Assembly: GCA_021793275.1 (NCBI GenBank)
Contig: JAJYTC010000023.1
Coordinates: 1 to 38,957 of the forward strand
Length of the DNA stretch: 38,957 nucleotides
Direction of reading: 5' to 3'
Source of the DNA: Deltaproteobacteria bacterium
GTDB taxonomy: Bacteria; Desulfobacterota; Syntrophobacteria; Syntrophobacterales; Syntrophobacteraceae
A model generated the notes under the pieces. It saw nothing but the letters and a program-made list of their open reading frames with translations. It made no database searches and had not been told where the DNA came from. This document shows, piece by piece, positions 1,185 through 12,705 of this stretch. The number at the start of each line of letters is the position of its first letter. The stretch's first letter is position 1. The position numbers and the translations under genes are program-made.

Positions 1185-3212
1185 ATGGTGGACATGACGC
1201 TTTTGTTTGATAACATTTCGCTGGAAGGGCCTCTCAAGCCGCGCGAAAAGATGGGCGTCACCTTCATCGGCCCCGATTTTTTCGCCGTCGATGAAAACGG
1301 TGAGTTTTTGAGCCACATTGGCTCCGTCTTTCCCCGATATCGCGCCATAGTCACGGTCCGGGGCATTCACGCGCACCATATTTCGATTATGACAGAGTTC
1401 CTCAAGCCGAGAACGGCCAAAGAGGACCGGATTGAAGCGAGCGAACTCGAAGAGTTGATATGCCTGGACGCAGTACCTCTGGTGTTTCGTGGCGACCTCA
1501 TAATTGTTCGGGCCGATCCTGCAGGGATGGAAAATGTTTTTGCCGCCGACCAGATACTGCAGTCATTTTTCCCGAAAGAACGCATTCAGTTCACAGGGTT
1601 GAATATTCCCGCAATTAGAATGGAGTTTCGCCGCAGGGGCGAATGCTGGCGAATGTCTCCACCGCCCAGGTCGGTCGAGGAAATCTGTCGTTACGTGCGT
1701 GCCAGCAAGATCCAGGCAGGTACGGGCTTGACCGTCTACTACAATGAGTCTACCGGAGGAAGGGTCCTCACCTGCGATGAATTTATGCGAATCAGGTCCC
1801 TGATCGAGCAGGACCGCTCAGAAGCCCTGGCCCGGCTAAGGGAAATACTAAACCTGTCCCACTGCACCAATAGATGGGGAAGCCGCGAATTGAACTTGCT
1901 GCTGCCCGCCGGTAAGGACCTCGATTTTGCGGAACTCGAAAAAGCCGTTTCTATTCTCGAAGCGCTTCCGGCTTCAGAAGATACGGCAAGCGCGCTAAAA
2001 GCATTCGACAGCTTCGCCTCTGTTTTCACCGCGGCTGCCGGTCCCGAACTTGTCAAGGACGATTACAGCGACCCGGTGTGGCGAACGACCATGTTCTGCC
2101 GCCTTTTCGGCATCAATGAAGAAGAGATGGAAGAGTTGGCGCTGGAACTCAGCCCTGAATTTCACCTGAATGTGAAATGGCTGCCCGGGGCATCGGTCGT
2201 CGGCGGGCAACTGCGCTTCGACACCGGTGTGCATCCCCGGATCCATGGTCTTATATCGCACTATTGGGAGCACTCCGGTGGACTTTTGTCGATCAATATT
2301 GGGCAGATACAGGAGTCGCTTAGTTCGAGGGACATTTCCGGAGAGGAAAGGGAAGTCTATCTGGTATCGATGACGACCCGGGATGGAAACGATTCCATCA
2401 GTCTCCTCCGGCTCATGAAATGGGATGTAATACACCGGATAAAGATTGGTATTCCCCTGGAGCAGGCTATCGAGGATACGTTCAAATACCGGGATTACAT
2501 TTTCGACAGGCTCCGTGCTGCGGCCAAGCTGGGCTTTCCAATCCTTACCTACGGCGAGATAAGGCTGGAGCAGCGGGTCCCGGGGCTGGGGCAGGTACCG
2601 GCGTTCTTTTTCGAACGCCAATATGTCACGGGTGTTGTTTCCGACAAACTCCCGATCTCGTGCTACAAAAACCCGGACTTCATAGAGAACCTCTCCAGCC
2701 TGTTGGGCCTTGCCGCCGCTTTCACCCTCGTGCTGGGCAGAGTCAGTTTTCGCACAGGGAAAGTTTTCTACGACGACGGCGACGAATTGATACAACTGGA
2801 TTCCAACTCCATCCCCTCCCGCCTGGTTATAATCGAGACCACAGGATCGTTTACCGACTGGACGACACCGATGCACACCCTGCTGCCGCAATGCCTCAGC
2901 CGGTTCAGAGTTCATCTGGAAAAGGCCGTCGATAGCGGCGTGAGTCTCGAAGTGATTCAGAGGTCTGTGGAGATATTTGCCGAGGCGCTCGGTAATAAGA
3001 TTGATGCAATCAAGGAAGCTGTGTCGGCCCCTTTTTCGGACATCCGCTCTTTGTTCGATGACCACCCCCCGGGGCAAGGAGGAATACGCGACAGGTGGGA
3101 AGGCATAATCCATCGCCTGGAGGCTGTGGACGCGAGATCGTTGCGGAACGACGTTGTCAACAGCCCGCAATTGCGTTTCCCTCAGCCGAGGCAATCAACT
3201 ATTTCCAATTGA
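1185..3212 (+). CDS. Unrecognised 675-residue protein
   Basis: This is a long, uninterrupted frame with codon use like its neighbours, so it is very probably a real gene, but no family was recognised. It appears soluble, with no signal peptide. One Ala/Leu-rich hydrophobic patch sits near residues 500-515 (LLGLAAAFTLVLG), followed by an acidic YDDGDELIQLD stretch that could be a metal or nucleotide site; this is only a visual impression. The start is uncertain: ATG 1185 lacks a good ribosome site, and ATG 1194 three codons on is equally possible. It lies 116 bases upstream of hpnA in the same direction, with a repeat hairpin between, so co-transcription with the hopanoid genes is possible but not shown. 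Confidence 0.7.
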   Translation: MVDMTLLFDNISLEGPLKPREKMGVTFIGPDFFAVDENGEFLSHIGSVFPRYRAIVTVRGIHAHHISIMTEFLKPRTAKEDRIEASELEELICLDAVPLVFRGDLIIVRADPAGMENVFAADQILQSFFPKERIQFTGLNIPAIRMEFRRRGECWRMSPPPRSVEEICRYVRASKIQAGTGLTVYYNESTGGRVLTCDEFMRIRSLIEQDRSEALARLREILNLSHCTNRWGSRELNLLLPAGKDLDFAELEKAVSILEALPASEDTASALKAFDSFASVFTAAAGPELVKDDYSDPVWRTTMFCRLFGINEEEMEELALELSPEFHLNVKWLPGASVVGGQLRFDTGVHPRIHGLISHYWEHSGGLLSINIGQIQESLSSRDISGEEREVYLVSMTTRDGNDSISLLRLMKWDVIHRIKIGIPLEQAIEDTFKYRDYIFDRLRAAAKLGFPILTYGEIRLEQRVPGLGQVPAFFFERQYVTGVVSDKLPISCYKNPDFIENLSSLLGLAAAFTLVLGRVSFRTGKVFYDDGDELIQLDSNSIPSRLVIIETTGSFTDWTTPMHTLLPQCLSRFRVHLEKAVDSGVSLEVIQRSVEIFAEALGNKIDAIKEAVSAPFSDIRSLFDDHPPGQGGIRDRWEGIIHRLEAVDARSLRNDVVNSPQLRFPQPRQSTISN

Positions 3213-4381: not shown

Positions 4382-5377
4382 ATGCGTTTTCCAATCAGTC
4401 TTTACATTTCGATGACCGGCTGGCTCGCCGGCAATAAACTTCGTGGAAACGAGCGGTTTCCACTCGTATTGATGCTCGAACCCACTCACAGGTGCAATCT
4501 GACCTGTTCGGGCTGTGGAAGGATTCGAGAATATCACGATACGCTTTCCAAAGAGATGACCCTCGAAGAGTGCCTGACATCGATCGAGGAAGCTAAAACA
4601 CCGGTGGTGACCATTACGGGCGGAGAACCCCTGCTCTACTCGAAGGCCCCGGAACTGGTCCGTGAAGCACTCGCCCGGCGAAAGCACATTTATTTTTGCA
4701 CCAACGGTATGCTGCTCGAGGAATCGTTGTCACTTTTCAAGCCTGACCAGCATTTTACCTGGAACGTCCATTTCGATGGGACCGAGCCGGTTCATGACCT
4801 CATAATCGGAAGGCCGGGAGGGTTCCCAAAAGCCCTTGCGGGCGTAAAAGCCGCCAAGAGCAGGGGCTTTCGCGTAAGCACAAATACCACAGTCTACAGG
4901 GAATCCTCGGTCGAAGACCTCTACAGGCTCTTTGAGCAACTCACGCAGGCCGGGGTGGACGGCATCCTTGTGGCCCCGGGTTTCAGCTACGAAGAAGTCG
5001 TACGGGATGTTTTCCTGACAAAAAACGAGATAGTGAAAAAATTTCAGGAAATCAGCACCTGGGGGAAAAAATTCCCCATTATCAGTAATCCCCTCTACCT
5101 GGAATTCGTAGCCGGGAAAAGATCGCTCAAGTGCACGCCCTGGGGAAATCCAACCCGTAACCCGCTGGGCTGGAAATCGCCGTGCTACCTCATTACGGAC
5201 ACGCATTACCGCACTTTTGCGGAGCTGATGGAGCGCACCGATTGGGACCATTACGCTTCGGGGGCCGACCCCAGATGCGCCCAGTGCATGGTCCACTGCG
5301 GCTACGAGCCGACCATAGTGCGTCAGATGGGATTCAAGGACATGTTACGCATGCTCAAGTGGAACATCAATGTATGA
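4382..5377 (+). CDS. hpnH: Radical SAM adenosylhopane synthase HpnH
   Basis: The radical SAM CX3CX2C motif is C38, C42, C45 (CNLTCSGC), followed by a glycine-rich GGEPLL motif, as in the family. HpnH attaches the adenosyl group of SAM to diploptene to give adenosylhopane, the first step in making C35 hopanoid side chains. The length of 331 residues is typical. AGGAGG at 4364-4369 supports the start. The 3' end overlaps the next gene by 8 bases, implying translational coupling. HpnG, which acts on the HpnH product, is encoded on the other strand at 7411-8178. The C-terminal Cys-rich part (CAQCMVHCGYEP) resembles the auxiliary or SPASM-like ends of this group. Confidence 0.9.
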   Translation: MRFPISLYISMTGWLAGNKLRGNERFPLVLMLEPTHRCNLTCSGCGRIREYHDTLSKEMTLEECLTSIEEAKTPVVTITGGEPLLYSKAPELVREALARRKHIYFCTNGMLLEESLSLFKPDQHFTWNVHFDGTEPVHDLIIGRPGGFPKALAGVKAAKSRGFRVSTNTTVYRESSVEDLYRLFEQLTQAGVDGILVAPGFSYEEVVRDVFLTKNEIVKKFQEISTWGKKFPIISNPLYLEFVAGKRSLKCTPWGNPTRNPLGWKSPCYLITDTHYRTFAELMERTDWDHYASGADPRCAQCMVHCGYEPTIVRQMGFKDMLRMLKWNINV

Positions 5378-6313: not shown

Positions 6314-6535
6314 TTACAGTAATTTCAAAAATTCATCCACGGTCATCCCTGAAAGACTGATGAGCTTGCGCAAGGTCCCTGTTGATAGCTCTTTATGCTG
6401 AGGGATGGAAAGATTGACTCGGGTTCCAGCTTTGACCATCACAAGATGGCTTCCAACTTGGCCGATTGCCTGCCAGCCGGCTTTTTCAAAAGCCTTGGCA
6501 GCTTCCTTGCCCGATATATTACCCAGTTTCCCCAT
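6314..6535 (-). CDS. hicA: HicA-family toxin (mRNA interferase)
   Basis: This 73-residue protein has the HicA double-stranded-RNA-binding-like fold. It shows the N-terminal GKEAAKAFEKAGW helix, then the catalytic His in GSHLVM (H30), then the strand VNLSIPQHKELSTGTLRKL. HicA cleaves mRNA and is neutralised by HicB. It lies 3 bases after hicB, the antitoxin-first order seen in many hicBA pairs, so the two are co-translated. Length and His are intact, so it should be active. Its stop is immediately next to the duplicated hpnG remnant. Confidence 0.9.
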   Translation of the reverse strand: MGKLGNISGKEAAKAFEKAGWQAIGQVGSHLVMVKAGTRVNLSIPQHKELSTGTLRKLISLSGMTVDEFLKLL

Positions 6536-6538
6536 GAT

Positions 6539-6754
6539 TTAAACCGTCACCATCAACGGCTTTTGCCTCTTTTGTTCTGATAGGGCTGCGACGGCTTTTT
6601 GGTCTTCGGCCCAAAGCCATGCAGTTATGGCCTCCTTTATGTTCTCGATTGCCTCTTTCTCATCTTTTCCTTGTGAAACACATCCGGGAAGGGCCGGGCA
6701 CTCGGCGACGATCCAGCCATCCTCGGCTTCTTCAAGAGTGACATGGAAAATCAT
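6539..6754 (-). CDS. hicB: HicB-family antitoxin
   Basis: This 71-residue protein has the partial RNase-H-like HicB domain (HVTLEEAEDGWIVAECPALPGCVSQG, described by its start FHVTLEE and the CPALPGC core, then EAIENIKEAI). It lacks the C-terminal DNA-binding extension present in longer HicB proteins, ending soon after the helix. It can therefore bind the toxin but may not repress transcription itself, a role the upstream MqsA-like gene could fill. TGAGG seven bases before the ATG supports the start. It is 78 bases downstream of mqsA in the same direction. Confidence 0.88.
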   Translation of the reverse strand: MIFHVTLEEAEDGWIVAECPALPGCVSQGKDEKEAIENIKEAITAWLWAEDQKAVAALSEQKRQKPLMVTV

Positions 6755-6832
6755 ATCTCATCCTCATTACATACACCTGGCAAAAACCTATTCCCTTTTC
6801 TCCAAAATCGCGCCTCATTTCTTCGTGTTACG

Positions 6833-7234
6833 CTAAGCCGATTTGACCTCCGTCAGAAGGTCCGGGTGGCGTTCAAGCACCTTTAGCAGCTTTACCAGCG
6901 CCAGTGGCGGCTTGGTCTTGCCGTTCTCGTAGCGTGAAAAGGCATTAACGCCACCGCCAAAAATCTCGCCGGCTTCGCGCTGATCGAGATCGAGCTTCTT
7001 GCGCACACTCGCAATAAATGCCGGATCGACATAGGCGGCGTTGACCTGCCTTTGAAACATTCCAATCAATTCGCTGTAGCGGTCGCCTTGTTCGCGGTTC
7101 AGGACAACCTCGGCGCAAGCAGGGCAGAAATCTCCCGTCACCGATGGAATGATGGTCGTTTCACCCTTGTAGACATAGGATATGTCGCGGGTGTCGTGGA
7201 TCAATTCAGCAGCCCCGCAGCACGGGCATTTCAT
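6833..7234 (-). CDS. mqsA: MqsA-family antitoxin/transcriptional repressor without an adjacent mqsR
   Basis: This 133-residue protein has the two-domain MqsA layout. The N-terminal zinc domain has C3, C6, C37 and C40, the same positions as in E. coli MqsA. The C-terminal helix-turn-helix contains RKKLDLDQREAGEIFGGG and NAFSRYENG, with the DNA-contacting N97 and R101 retained. MqsA binds the MqsR toxin and represses its own promoter. In the usual order mqsR lies immediately upstream, but the 176 bases up to hpnG contain no such frame. hicB and hicA follow instead. AAGGAG seven bases before the ATG supports the start. A likely operator lies upstream at 7299-7313. Confidence 0.9.
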   Translation of the reverse strand: MKCPCCGAAELIHDTRDISYVYKGETTIIPSVTGDFCPACAEVVLNREQGDRYSELIGMFQRQVNAAYVDPAFIASVRKKLDLDQREAGEIFGGGVNAFSRYENGKTKPPLALVKLLKVLERHPDLLTEVKSA

Positions 7235-9305: not shown

Positions 9306-9405
9306 TCCTCAGATTGCACCCGGTTGAATTATATCCGATCATCTGCTAGACTATTTTATTTAGAAGGGTTTTTCAAATGCAAGTTGTTTGAAGCATGGAG
9401 ACTGG

Positions 9406-11568
9406 ATGAACATAGCTCTTGTTTTTCCCCCCTTCTATTTCGAGCCTATGTACAACCTGCCTCCGCTAGGCCTCATAAATCTTGCCACAGCCCTCAAACC
9501 CTCGCCTCATACAGTAAAAATATTCGATTTTCCGCTCGATATTCGCCGCAAAACGCTGTCGATGGACAAGAATATTTATGCTCGATGCGCCAGGCAAATC
9601 CTCGATTTTTCACCCGATGCAGTCGGATTTTCGGTTCAATGCACAACCTACCCTCCGGCGGTCAATATCGCGCGAGAATTGAAGAAACTGGATCCACTGC
9701 TAAAGATCGTATTCGGTGGCCCCAATGTATCGTCCATAGATGAGCTTACCCTTTCGCGATTCCCGTTTATCGACGCGGTGGTGCGCGGTGAAGGAGAAAT
9801 TGCTTTCCCGGAATTGATCGGGGCTTTCGAAGGCCGGGTTGCCCCGGAATCGGTAGAGGGGGTAACACTGCGCGGATCGGACAGGATAGTGCGTAATCCC
9901 GACCGGGAACTTATAGAAAACCTCGATTGCCTGCCGGTAAGCGATTATACGTTCGTACCTCCTTTCAGCGAATACCGCGACGCCTGCGGGATCGGGCGCT
10001 CGATCGCCATACTGGAGGTCGGCAGGGGGTGTCCGCACCGGTGCGTCTATTGTTCTCAATCGATCATGTGGAGACGAAGGCCAAGGACATTTTCAACAGC
10101 GCGAATCATCCAAGAGATGAAGAACCTGGCCGATCATTTCGGCGCCGAGTGCTTTCTGCTCGCCTTCGACCAGTTTACCGCAAGGAGAAGCTTTGCTGAA
10201 CAATTCTGCCATGGCCTCATAGATGCCGGTCTCGATCGCCTCCCATGGTACTGCATCTCGAGGCTCGACACTGTCGATAAAGAGCTGCTCGATTTGATGC
10301 GCAGGGCCGGATGCGAGACGATGTGCTACGGGATCGACTCCGGATCGAAAAGGACACTGGCTTTCATTCACAAGGACATTGACCGCGAAATCCTCTTCGA
10401 CAGGGTCAGGGAGACCACGGAGGCAGGAATCGTCCCCACCTTGAGCTTCGTGATCGGATTTCCGGAGGAAGAGAGGCAAGATCTCGAAGAGACTCTCGAA
10501 CTCGCATTAAGAGCCGCCGCTACGGGAAATACGAACGTTCTGGTGCAGATGGCCACCATTTTGCCCGGGACCGAGCTGTACACTAAATACAGGCACATGC
10601 TGGTTCGAGAAGTCGACACCTATTTCTCGCTCGGAATCGAGTTCGACGAAGGCAGACGATTGGCATCCGATGACATGCTGATCGATTCGGAACCGACGAT
10701 TTTCAGCAGTTTCCACAACCTGCCCTGCCCTGCCGGGACACTGGAGGAGCTAAATGAGACGGCAAGCTACTTCACCGTAATCGCAGCCCTCTATCCGAGG
10801 AGTTTTCTACTGCTTGGCATCGAGTTGGGCCTGCCCGTCGTCGACCTCTTTTTCCGTTTTCTGGAAAGTGTTGCCCAAAAGGAGATAGAGCTCTCGGGAG
10901 CGGCCTTTTCGCCGGCGATCCCCCAACCGAGTTCAACCGGCGCCGGGCCTCGCCGCCGCCTCTCGCCCCTGGCCTGCCTGGCGCATTTCGAAGATTTTGC
11001 CGCCCAATGCCTTGCCCGGCGTGACGTGGTTGTGCGTGAGTTCATCCCCGAACTCATAAAGTATGAAACGTGCCTTTTCAGGGCCGGTGAAACCGCAGGG
11101 CCGGCTTCGCCGTTTGTCATCGACCCCGGCGGGATACACAGCTTGAAACCGTTGCGTAACCGGAAGGTTTCAATCGAGCGGTTCACATATGATATCCCAG
11201 GTCTTATCTTGCACTTCAGATGCGGCCATTTCCCGGATTCGTGCCGGCAAAGGCCGGTTTTTCTCGCCTTCTCCCGGGCGCCGGGCGGTACGAAGGTTCG
11301 AGAAATTAACGAATTCGGGGTCGATTTTCTCGGGTTGTGTGACGGGCAGATCACCTTAAAGGATATTGCAGACAGACTTTACCTGAAATACGGAGCAGAT
11401 AAAGAGCGCGGCGAATTCGCCGCCGAATGCGCGGAAGCTGCCGCAACGCTTGCCGGTATCGAGCTTCTTGCGCAGGAGGAAAAGCCTTATCACGAAAAGA
11501 AAGGAGGTGAAACGGATGCTCCAGGTGAAGGATATCGAGAAAAAGATCCTTGTAGCGGCAGTCGATGA
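9406..11568 (+). CDS. B12-binding radical SAM enzyme with C-terminal PqqD-like (RRE) region
   Basis: This 720-residue enzyme starts with a cobalamin-binding Rossmann domain (about 1-160; VFGGPNVS, VVRGEGE). The radical SAM core follows (about 200-430) with CX3CX2C at C209, C213, C216 (GCPHRCVYC). An uncharacterised segment (about 430-620) holds a Cys-containing CGHFPDSC. Residues about 625-690 (VREINEFGVDFLGLCDG, then TLKDIADRLYLKYG) look like PqqD, the RiPP precursor recognition element. Related enzymes methylate or epimerise peptide backbones. I start at ATG 9406 because GGAG sits well before it and the B12 fold begins there. The last 18 or so codons are low-complexity because a peptide gene overlaps in another frame. 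It is not HpnP or HpnJ, which lack the PqqD end. Confidence 0.85.
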   Translation: MNIALVFPPFYFEPMYNLPPLGLINLATALKPSPHTVKIFDFPLDIRRKTLSMDKNIYARCARQILDFSPDAVGFSVQCTTYPPAVNIARELKKLDPLLKIVFGGPNVSSIDELTLSRFPFIDAVVRGEGEIAFPELIGAFEGRVAPESVEGVTLRGSDRIVRNPDRELIENLDCLPVSDYTFVPPFSEYRDACGIGRSIAILEVGRGCPHRCVYCSQSIMWRRRPRTFSTARIIQEMKNLADHFGAECFLLAFDQFTARRSFAEQFCHGLIDAGLDRLPWYCISRLDTVDKELLDLMRRAGCETMCYGIDSGSKRTLAFIHKDIDREILFDRVRETTEAGIVPTLSFVIGFPEEERQDLEETLELALRAAATGNTNVLVQMATILPGTELYTKYRHMLVREVDTYFSLGIEFDEGRRLASDDMLIDSEPTIFSSFHNLPCPAGTLEELNETASYFTVIAALYPRSFLLLGIELGLPVVDLFFRFLESVAQKEIELSGAAFSPAIPQPSSTGAGPRRRLSPLACLAHFEDFAAQCLARRDVVVREFIPELIKYETCLFRAGETAGPASPFVIDPGGIHSLKPLRNRKVSIERFTYDIPGLILHFRCGHFPDSCRQRPVFLAFSRAPGGTKVREINEFGVDFLGLCDGQITLKDIADRLYLKYGADKERGEFAAECAEAAATLAGIELLAQEEKPYHEKKGGETDAPGEGYREKDPCSGSR

Positions 11569-11599
11569 GGCGCCGACAACCTTTGTCGTACCGACCTGA
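11516..11599 (+). CDS. Putative 27-residue RiPP precursor peptide
   Basis: A 27-codon frame with the near-ideal ribosome site AAGGAGGTGA six bases before its ATG. The peptide begins MLQVKDIEKKIL (charged, leader-like) and ends in a hydrophobic, Thr/Val/Pro-rich tail APTTFVVPT, a plausible core. It overlaps the last 53 bases of the radical SAM/RRE gene in another frame and is followed by a stem (11614-11630) and a strong terminator, a common precursor-gene layout. No homologous peptide was recognised. The role is inferred from position, size, the ribosome site and the RRE domain of its neighbour. It has no Cys, Ser or Gly repeats, which limits the possible modification chemistry. Confidence 0.55.
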   Translation: MLQVKDIEKKILVAAVDEAPTTFVVPT

Positions 11600-11655
11600 C
11601 ATGCCCCATCGGAATCTCCGGTCCGGAGATAAGAAACCTTGAACCTGCTTAATAT

Positions 11656-11690
11656 TCGGGGGGCGCAGAAATGTGCTCCCCGATTCTTTT
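11656..11690 (+). terminator. Terminator between the peptide gene and the M19 peptidase gene
   Basis: A 12-base stem (11656-11667 with 11672-11683, two G-U pairs) closed by a GAAA tetraloop is followed by TTCTTTT. It would end or attenuate transcription after the peptide gene. Because the ATG at 11671 lies in the loop and right arm, it argues against that ATG as the start of the peptidase. Confidence 0.8.
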
Positions 11691-11736
11691 GGGCAATTCC
11701 ATTCAATCATGGACTACGCGAGGTTTGTTTGACCAA

Positions 11737-12705
11737 ATGACGGTAAATCCCAACTTTGAACCTGCCCGGACTGAGGCGGTTGTCCGAATCGACGGACATG
11801 TCGATGTGCTGTATGAAATGCTTGAAGCGCACAGTGATGTCTCTTTCGATAATTTGCCCGACCTGGCCGTAACTGTGGATAAAATGAAAAGCGTAGACGT
11901 CGTGGCCGCGGTATTTGCGCTTTACTGTCCGGATGAGTATGACGGAAGCGGCTCGAAAGACTTTCTGGCCCATCTCCTGGCTTACGCCGAGCGTCTCCTG
12001 AAGGGGCTTTTTCACATAAAATCCGCCCAAGACCTGAGTGATTGCATCCGGTTGAAAAGACCCGGAATGATCTTGCTCATCGAAAACAGCGACGGCTTGA
12101 TCGAGTTTGATCGTACAATGCTCGCGCAGGCCGGCGTCAGGGTGGCCGGCCTCACGCACATGGGAAGAAACAGGCTCGGGGACGGCAACGCGGTTCCCTT
12201 TCCCGAAGGCCTGACCGAACAGGGAAAGGATCTGGTAAAGGAACTCGCGCGCGAAGGTTTCGCATTCGATGCAGCCCATTTGGCGGAGCCCGGTTTTCGC
12301 GACCTGGTGCGGCTGCACGAGGGACCGCTAATATCCTCGCACACCGGGGTGCGGGCGCTTGCAGACATTCCGAGAAACCTTACCAGAAATCAGGTTGCCG
12401 CCATTATCGAACACAAAGGGGTCATCGGAATAGCCGCCGATCCGAAAATGCTCACACTTTCGGGCAAGGCTTCAATCGACGACATCTTCCATCACATCGA
12501 CTGGATTGCCCAGTCCTTCGGCGCCGACGCCATCGGCATAGGCACCGACTTTTGCGGCTTTGAGGGCATAAACGCCGGGTTCGAAGACATAACGAAGATG
12601 ACCGACCTGGAGCGGATAATGCGCGAACACGGGTATCCGGAAAAAAGTATTCGCGCAATAATGGGAGAAAACTGGCGCATTTTCTATGAATCGCTGCTGC
12701 AATAG
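11737..12705 (+). CDS. M19 (membrane/renal dipeptidase) family peptidase
   Basis: This 322-residue zinc dipeptidase-type TIM barrel has metal-binding HxD in DGHVD near the N-terminus, the bridging Glu in IENSDG, a His in DAAHL, a His in SSHTG, and the Asp of GIGTDFCG, covering the M19 metal and substrate set. Family members hydrolyse dipeptides, including D-amino-acid-containing ones. The frame is open from 11671, but that ATG is within the terminator, so ATG 11737 is preferred although its GAGG is 14 bases away. It follows the radical SAM/peptide pair, so it could trim the modified product or recycle its leader; this is inference. No signal peptide is visible. mscS converges on it downstream. 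Confidence 0.85.
   Translation: MTVNPNFEPARTEAVVRIDGHVDVLYEMLEAHSDVSFDNLPDLAVTVDKMKSVDVVAAVFALYCPDEYDGSGSKDFLAHLLAYAERLLKGLFHIKSAQDLSDCIRLKRPGMILLIENSDGLIEFDRTMLAQAGVRVAGLTHMGRNRLGDGNAVPFPEGLTEQGKDLVKELAREGFAFDAAHLAEPGFRDLVRLHEGPLISSHTGVRALADIPRNLTRNQVAAIIEHKGVIGIAADPKMLTLSGKASIDDIFHHIDWIAQSFGADAIGIGTDFCGFEGINAGFEDITKMTDLERIMREHGYPEKSIRAIMGENWRIFYESLLQ

Follow-up and report, generated by a model that had tools for sequence, protein, structure and literature searches.

Among the 119 prokaryotic selenoprotein families and subfamilies of a 2026 inventory, the single RiPP is the selenobacteriocin (TIGR04081), which has an SGUG motif (PMC13188914). Reference 90 of that paper, Lewis et al. 2021, deals with thio(seleno)oxazole RiPPs, as it is listed there. 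We analyzed a window (the whole stretch of DNA studied, 38,957 nucleotides, from a member of the Syntrophobacteraceae) in which a small gene follows the gene for a cobalamin-type radical SAM enzyme. We read the small gene as a selenocysteine (Sec)-containing RiPP precursor that would occupy positions 11516-11632, use UGA recoding, and pair with the radical SAM enzyme. From sequence comparison, we put the probability of this reading at about 0.88.

The proposed peptide resembles selenobacteriocin in being a Sec-containing RiPP precursor that a radical SAM enzyme would modify. However, selenobacteriocin has the SGUG motif and two Sec residues, whereas the peptide here would have one, in the sequence UHAP. 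Its enzyme also differs, being of the cobalamin type with an RRE-like domain, and its relatives contain CHAP repeats. Membership in the selenobacteriocin family was rejected because the peptide had no TIGR04081 match at an E value of 10. The CefA family (NF038108, a Cys-every-fifth RiPP peptide) shares with the Cys-type relatives a Cys at each fifth residue, but these peptides score 17 to 24 bits against a cut-off of 30, and the Sec type has no match. With a best score of 23.7 bits, CefA membership was also rejected. Outside the enzyme-bearing genomes, most of the NF038108 matches that we inspected lay in pentapeptide-repeat or otherwise unrelated frames.

ApyD (NF050148, aminopyruvatide biosynthesis) is, like the enzyme here, a RiPP-associated cobalamin radical SAM enzyme, and it is the best curated match (254.6 bits). 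However, this falls below the cut-off of 750, only residues 25-447 align, and the precursor and partner enzymes differ, so ApyD membership was rejected. The enzyme passed no curated NCBIfam cut-off, and the peptide exceeded that of no NCBIfam model. For the CHAP-repeat peptides, we found no curated model or paper in the literature covered, which is incomplete and leaves most subscription journals outside. The peptide would be a Sec RiPP distinct from selenobacteriocin, within a CHAP-repeat RiPP family for which we found no curated model.

A small gene behind a cobalamin-type radical SAM enzyme

The enzyme gene lies at 9406-11568 on the plus strand, with a conserved MNIALVFPPF start, and its reading frame can be extended to a TTG at 9388. 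Pfam matches comprise B12-binding (1.4e-15), Radical_SAM (7.3e-21), and PqqD (1.9e-4), the last being weak and just under its cut-off (22.2 versus 23.4 bits). A B12-binding domain with a radical SAM domain carrying CxxxCxxC gives the enzyme a cobalamin-dependent radical SAM architecture. Its AlphaFold model has a mean pLDDT of 83.6, and the closest solved folds found by Foldseek are TsrM, TokK, MgmA, AprD4, and CysS. Residues 589-684 counted from 9406 (11170-11457) form the C-terminal PqqD-like, or RRE-like, domain, modeled as three strands followed by three helices. A search of plasmids with the enzyme gave distant radical SAM proteins and nothing closer (36% over 65% of the query). One of these, on the conjugative plasmid pSmeSM11b of Sinorhizobium meliloti, has a second radical SAM gene after it.

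The small gene starts at ATG 11516. Its translation to the first in-frame TGA (11516-11599, plus strand) is MLQVKDIEKKILVAAVDEAPTTFVVPT*, in a frame different from that of the enzyme ORF (9388-11568), which it overlaps by 53 bases. The ribosome-binding site AAGGAGGTGA (11501-11510) ends five bases 5' of the ATG and is conserved in relatives. The leader MLQVKDIEKK (11516-11545) follows a pattern common to Sec- and Cys-type relatives, ML(Q/K)(V/I)K(D/E)(V/I)EKK, which stands behind the same ribosome site just 3' of the enzyme in every locus but one. The exception is G001 (G000 being the window's own genome and other G numbers those of relatives), where the enzyme is present and the peptide was not found at the locus. 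There, SECIS-like hairpin sequence (4480-4535 of the reverse-complemented locus) encodes ESPVRR, the residues with which the enzyme ends, and it looks as if the peptide was deleted or the assembly collapsed.

A C-terminal tail of the enzyme (11479-11568) runs over the ribosome site and leader of the peptide. It has pLDDT values below 50 from residue 692, and residues 692-720 are predicted to be disordered. Such a run-on tail occurs in three genomes only (that of the window, G006, and G009), whereas most relatives' enzymes end before the peptide gene. The overlap therefore accounts for the low-complexity end of the enzyme, as the first-pass annotation had proposed. That annotation was also right that a small precursor-like gene, with a good ribosome site before its ATG, belongs to the adjoining enzyme, and its frame is conserved among homologous loci. 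Stops and frameshifts were sought in close relatives and did not refute the frame. The sole in-frame stop-like codon is the conserved TGA, which aligns with Cys.

Each of the ten remaining genomes of the genus encodes the enzyme, as do four further genomes from the family and a scattering across the phylum. It also turned up in five named MAG records labeled Deltaproteobacteria or Syntrophobacteraceae. Traits of a RiPP precursor are present: a small conserved gene beside a peptide-modifying enzyme, and a conserved leader with a repeated or variable core (1 to 10 CHAP repeats). The gene is thus RiPP precursor-like, of a family without a previous catalogue entry, and the first-pass interpretation as a whole is partly supported.

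Elsewhere in the window, 4382-5377 encodes an HpnH-type adenosyl-hopene transferase that scores over the curated cut-off, and small minus-strand genes at 6314-7234 resemble, by sequence, HicA/HicB and MqsA-type toxin-antitoxin parts. In four Sec-lineage loci (L036, L037, L039, and L040), amino-acid ABC transporter-like genes lie upstream of the enzyme.

The in-frame TGA at 11597 and the Cys-type relatives

Where the window has its TGA (11597-11599), distant relatives have Cys, and behind the same leader they carry tandem CHAP[A/S] repeats that number as many as ten. MIEIKEVEKKVSYAAS-CHAPA-CHAPS-CHAPE-... is an example of such a Cys-type precursor. Of 395 genomes of the phylum, 11 had triple CHAP repeats, and the enzyme was present in each of the 11. 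Cys codons in these precursors are ordinary, the genes end in TAA or TAG, and a hairpin of the Sec type is not present. In the enzyme tree, the Sec and Cys types are two sides of one branch (support, 100/99), and a single Sec/Cys change is therefore the simplest history.

The TGA very probably is not a stop but a Sec codon. Reading through it gives a predicted 38-residue precursor, MLQVKDIEKKILVAAVDEAPTTFVVPT-U-HAPSESPVRR, ending at TAA 11630-11632. In all 14 genomes with the motif, HAP[S/T][E/Q]SPVRR follows the UGA and a stop comes at the same codon position. This last stop is TAA, TAG, or TGA, an interchange indicating that it is kept as a function and not as a sequence. Within the core repeat U-H-A-P-S (11597-11611), the H, A, and P codons differ at the third base only in these genomes. 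Over the first five codons, third positions vary in 5 of 5 cases and first and second positions in 2 of 10 (Fisher P = 0.007, uncorrected for relatedness). From SPVRR on, third bases are frozen except at the hairpin loop, with the family pattern TCTCC-GGTNC-GGAGA. This looks like a coding constraint followed by an RNA constraint.

In bacterial SECIS elements, a hairpin lies just 3' of the UGA, its apical loop opens with G, and GGUC loops occur. A SECIS-like hairpin, ATCTCC-GGTCC-GGAGAT, is present at 11614-11630, its loop beginning 20 nt after the UGA. One genome (G010) has AGUUC as its loop, and the stem is invariant, so that covariation cannot support the hairpin. The combination of UGA and hairpin was found a single time in each of 14 of the 15 family genomes with the enzyme, G001 being the exception, and in none of the 11 without it (Fisher P = 1.6e-6, uncorrected for relatedness). 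A separate terminator-like hairpin with a T-rich tail (11656-11690) lies between the peptide and dipeptidase genes.

Sec machinery is also present. All 26 genomes checked, G000 included, have tRNA-Sec (in G000 at C140:1127-1221, 74 bits), and SelB scored over its cut-off in 23 of 24. In G000 itself, SelB was seen in pieces only, at C166 and C90 among others. Its formate dehydrogenase (C174) contains a UGA, in ART-U-HAPTVAGL, with a GGACU-loop hairpin 18 nt after it. The formate dehydrogenase site is like that of the peptide in its Sec-H-A-P-T sequence and its hairpin 18 to 20 nt downstream with a loop starting in GG. However, formate dehydrogenase is a large molybdoenzyme, and we saw no sequence in common beyond five residues. 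The agreement of UHAP plus T/S at 11597-11611 with these Sec site residues may be convergence or borrowing.

These comparisons move the end of the gene and its core. The first-pass annotation gave the gene as 11516-11599, of which the start stands, whereas coding probably runs through the TGA to the stop at 11630-11632. It took the APTTFVVPT tail as the core, with Thr, Val, and Pro as the modified residues. The conserved core is instead U-H-A-P, directly past the apparent stop. Conservation is poor in the tails that precede the UGA (FVVPT, YVVAI, YVPN, and SHVPT), and TFVVPT (11579-11596) aligns with CHVPT or CHAPS of relatives as a decayed core repeat. Other forms at this position are SHVPT (G012), CHVPN (G021), RHVPT (G015), and CHVPT (G013). 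A Thr/Val/Pro core was rejected because the stretch is variable and a repeat remnant. Nor does the absence of a Cys-type residue hold, since Sec is predicted at the TGA, where relatives have Cys.

Two further arrangements were seen. In G005, a Cys-repeat precursor (10109-10300 of locus L039) and a Sec precursor (10579-10682) are adjacent behind one enzyme. G000 has a second precursor of the Cys type on contig C139, MLQVKEVEKRSAIVNSGENTSCHAPSCHAPACHGP..., with repeats at 3036-3076. It is flanked by genes that by sequence resemble the activase and D-component of 2-hydroxyacyl-CoA dehydratase-type systems.

Partner genes and a possible route to thio- or selenohistidine

After the peptide comes an M19 (renal-type) dipeptidase gene (11671-12705, plus strand; Pfam, 2.1e-55), with a likelier start at ATG 11737. 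The dipeptidase is next after the peptide in Sec-lineage loci with room downstream, and it also occurs in several Cys-type loci, preceded there by a Trm112-methyltransferase gene. GliJ-type M19 dipeptidases act in a sulfur natural-product pathway. The dipeptidase here matches GliJ-type structures (PDB 5nrt and others), but this similarity is at the family level only.

In 10 of 11 Cys-type loci, the Trm112-methyltransferase gene is the peptide's neighbor (G233 and G373 are among the loci checked). Among curated families, the methyltransferase matches the OvoA C-terminal domain best (TIGR04345; 7.8e-33), and among solved structures it is closest to OvsM (5-selenohistidine N-methyltransferase), OvoA, and OvoM. 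At 114 bits it is below the TIGR04345 cut-off of 170, and membership by score was rejected. The window lineage has its methyltransferase gene away from this locus. The G000 orthologue is at C148, and a PDB search with it gives only OvsM, OvoA, and OvoM. Among 59 relatives, the methyltransferase is present in 16 of 17 with the enzyme, compared with a full-length relative in 7 of the 42 others (P = 3e-8). Some loci also have a linked gene for a class V PLP enzyme (SufS/Sec lyase/EgtE-like). This PLP enzyme is present in 8 of 17 genomes with the radical SAM enzyme versus 1 of 42 others; one of the linked type was not found in G000. Three genomes (L119, L120, and L122) have molybdopterin oxidoreductase-like genes, as read from sequence, next to methyltransferases of a different OvoA-C-like Trm112 subgroup.

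For comparison, we used the ovothiol pathway steps described previously (PMC12631010). The ovothiol/ovoselenol pathway (OvoA, OvoB, OvoM, and OvsM) and the clusters here are alike in methyltransferase family, Cys/His chemistry, and PLP lyase logic. However, the clusters here are without a sulfoxide synthase and add an M19 dipeptidase, and the proposed substrate is a ribosomal peptide with adjacent Cys or Sec and His.

In the route that we propose, SelB and tRNA-Sec would decode UGA 11597 as Sec, steered by the hairpin at 11614-11630, and in the window lineage selenium would enter the product via the genetic code. The RRE-like domain is predicted to bind the precursor leader, and the radical SAM enzyme would modify the U-H-A-P core, the counterpart of the Cys-His-Ala-Pro repeats of the Cys type. 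With good support, we infer that the RRE-like domain binds the leader and that the enzyme acts on CHAP/UHAP units. In the chemistry that we favor, the enzyme would bond Se (or S) to the imidazole of the neighboring His. Proteolysis would then free the modified unit, the M19 dipeptidase would cut the final Cys-His or Sec-His dipeptide, and the PLP lyase would release 5-thio- or 5-selenohistidine. Finally, the OvoM/OvsM-like methyltransferase would N-methylate 5-seleno- or 5-thiohistidine to an ovothiol- or ovoselenol-type product. Such an O2-independent ribosomal route to thio- or selenohistidine, with the S/Se-to-His bond made in CHAP/UHAP before release and methylation, is a tentative proposal to which we give clearly less than even odds.

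Alternative readings and meaning for the family

With its short length and its overlap with the enzyme gene in the window genome, the small ORF could be taken for a chance overlap without a product. However, about 25 loci from several families conserve its leader, ribosome site, and core, so a chance ORF was rejected as having practically no likelihood. If the TGA were a true stop, the 27-residue peptide would be whole, and the block downstream would be an RNA element such as a transcript stabilizer or attenuator. The hairpin is indeed conserved as RNA, with its invariant stem, and a terminator-like hairpin comes after it. But an RNA element does not fit HAP codons that vary at third positions only or a last stop that is kept functionally. 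Also, the block aligns with the CHAP repeats of the same peptide family, and it is the tails ahead of the UGA that are poorly conserved. Termination at the TGA is very unlikely.

A Sec precursor need not yield a histidine derivative. The enzyme may instead C-methylate the core, so that the product would be a modified Cys/Sec-His peptide, which might serve as a metal ligand or in redox chemistry. This is a serious alternative, only a little short of an even chance, because the structurally best-known cobalamin radical SAM enzymes are mostly C-methyltransferases. Among the nearest folds, TsrM, TokK, and CysS are methyltransferases, the best curated match (ApyD) is a RiPP radical SAM protein, and metal binding would fit Cys-His repeats. 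However, the dipeptidase and the OvoM/OvsM-like methyltransferase point to breakdown into a small His-derived molecule, and Cys-type clusters have the ovothiol-type methyltransferase linked to them. That methyltransferase could also act on the His of the peptide itself or of CHxP proteins (formate dehydrogenase), with the peptide mimicking the UHAPT active-site loop. The G000 formate dehydrogenase contains the identical UHAPT, and the related subgroup beside molybdopterin oxidoreductase-like genes would suit this. But tandem CHAP repeats in many copies resemble released product units, and that subgroup has NILEK and not NLIDK, with a different C terminus, which makes the idea improbable.

As a Sec-containing precursor recoded at UGA, the peptide would add a second type to the selenocysteine RiPPs, and Cys and Sec would clearly have been exchanged within a single family. 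One could trace stepwise how as many as ten Cys repeats shrank to a single Sec unit. A frame finder that halts at the UGA truncates the gene, and such genes are therefore easily missed. If the thio/selenohistidine reading is true, then strict anaerobes could produce ovothiol-type molecules independently of OvoA, which uses O2, and UGA decoding would put the selenium in place.
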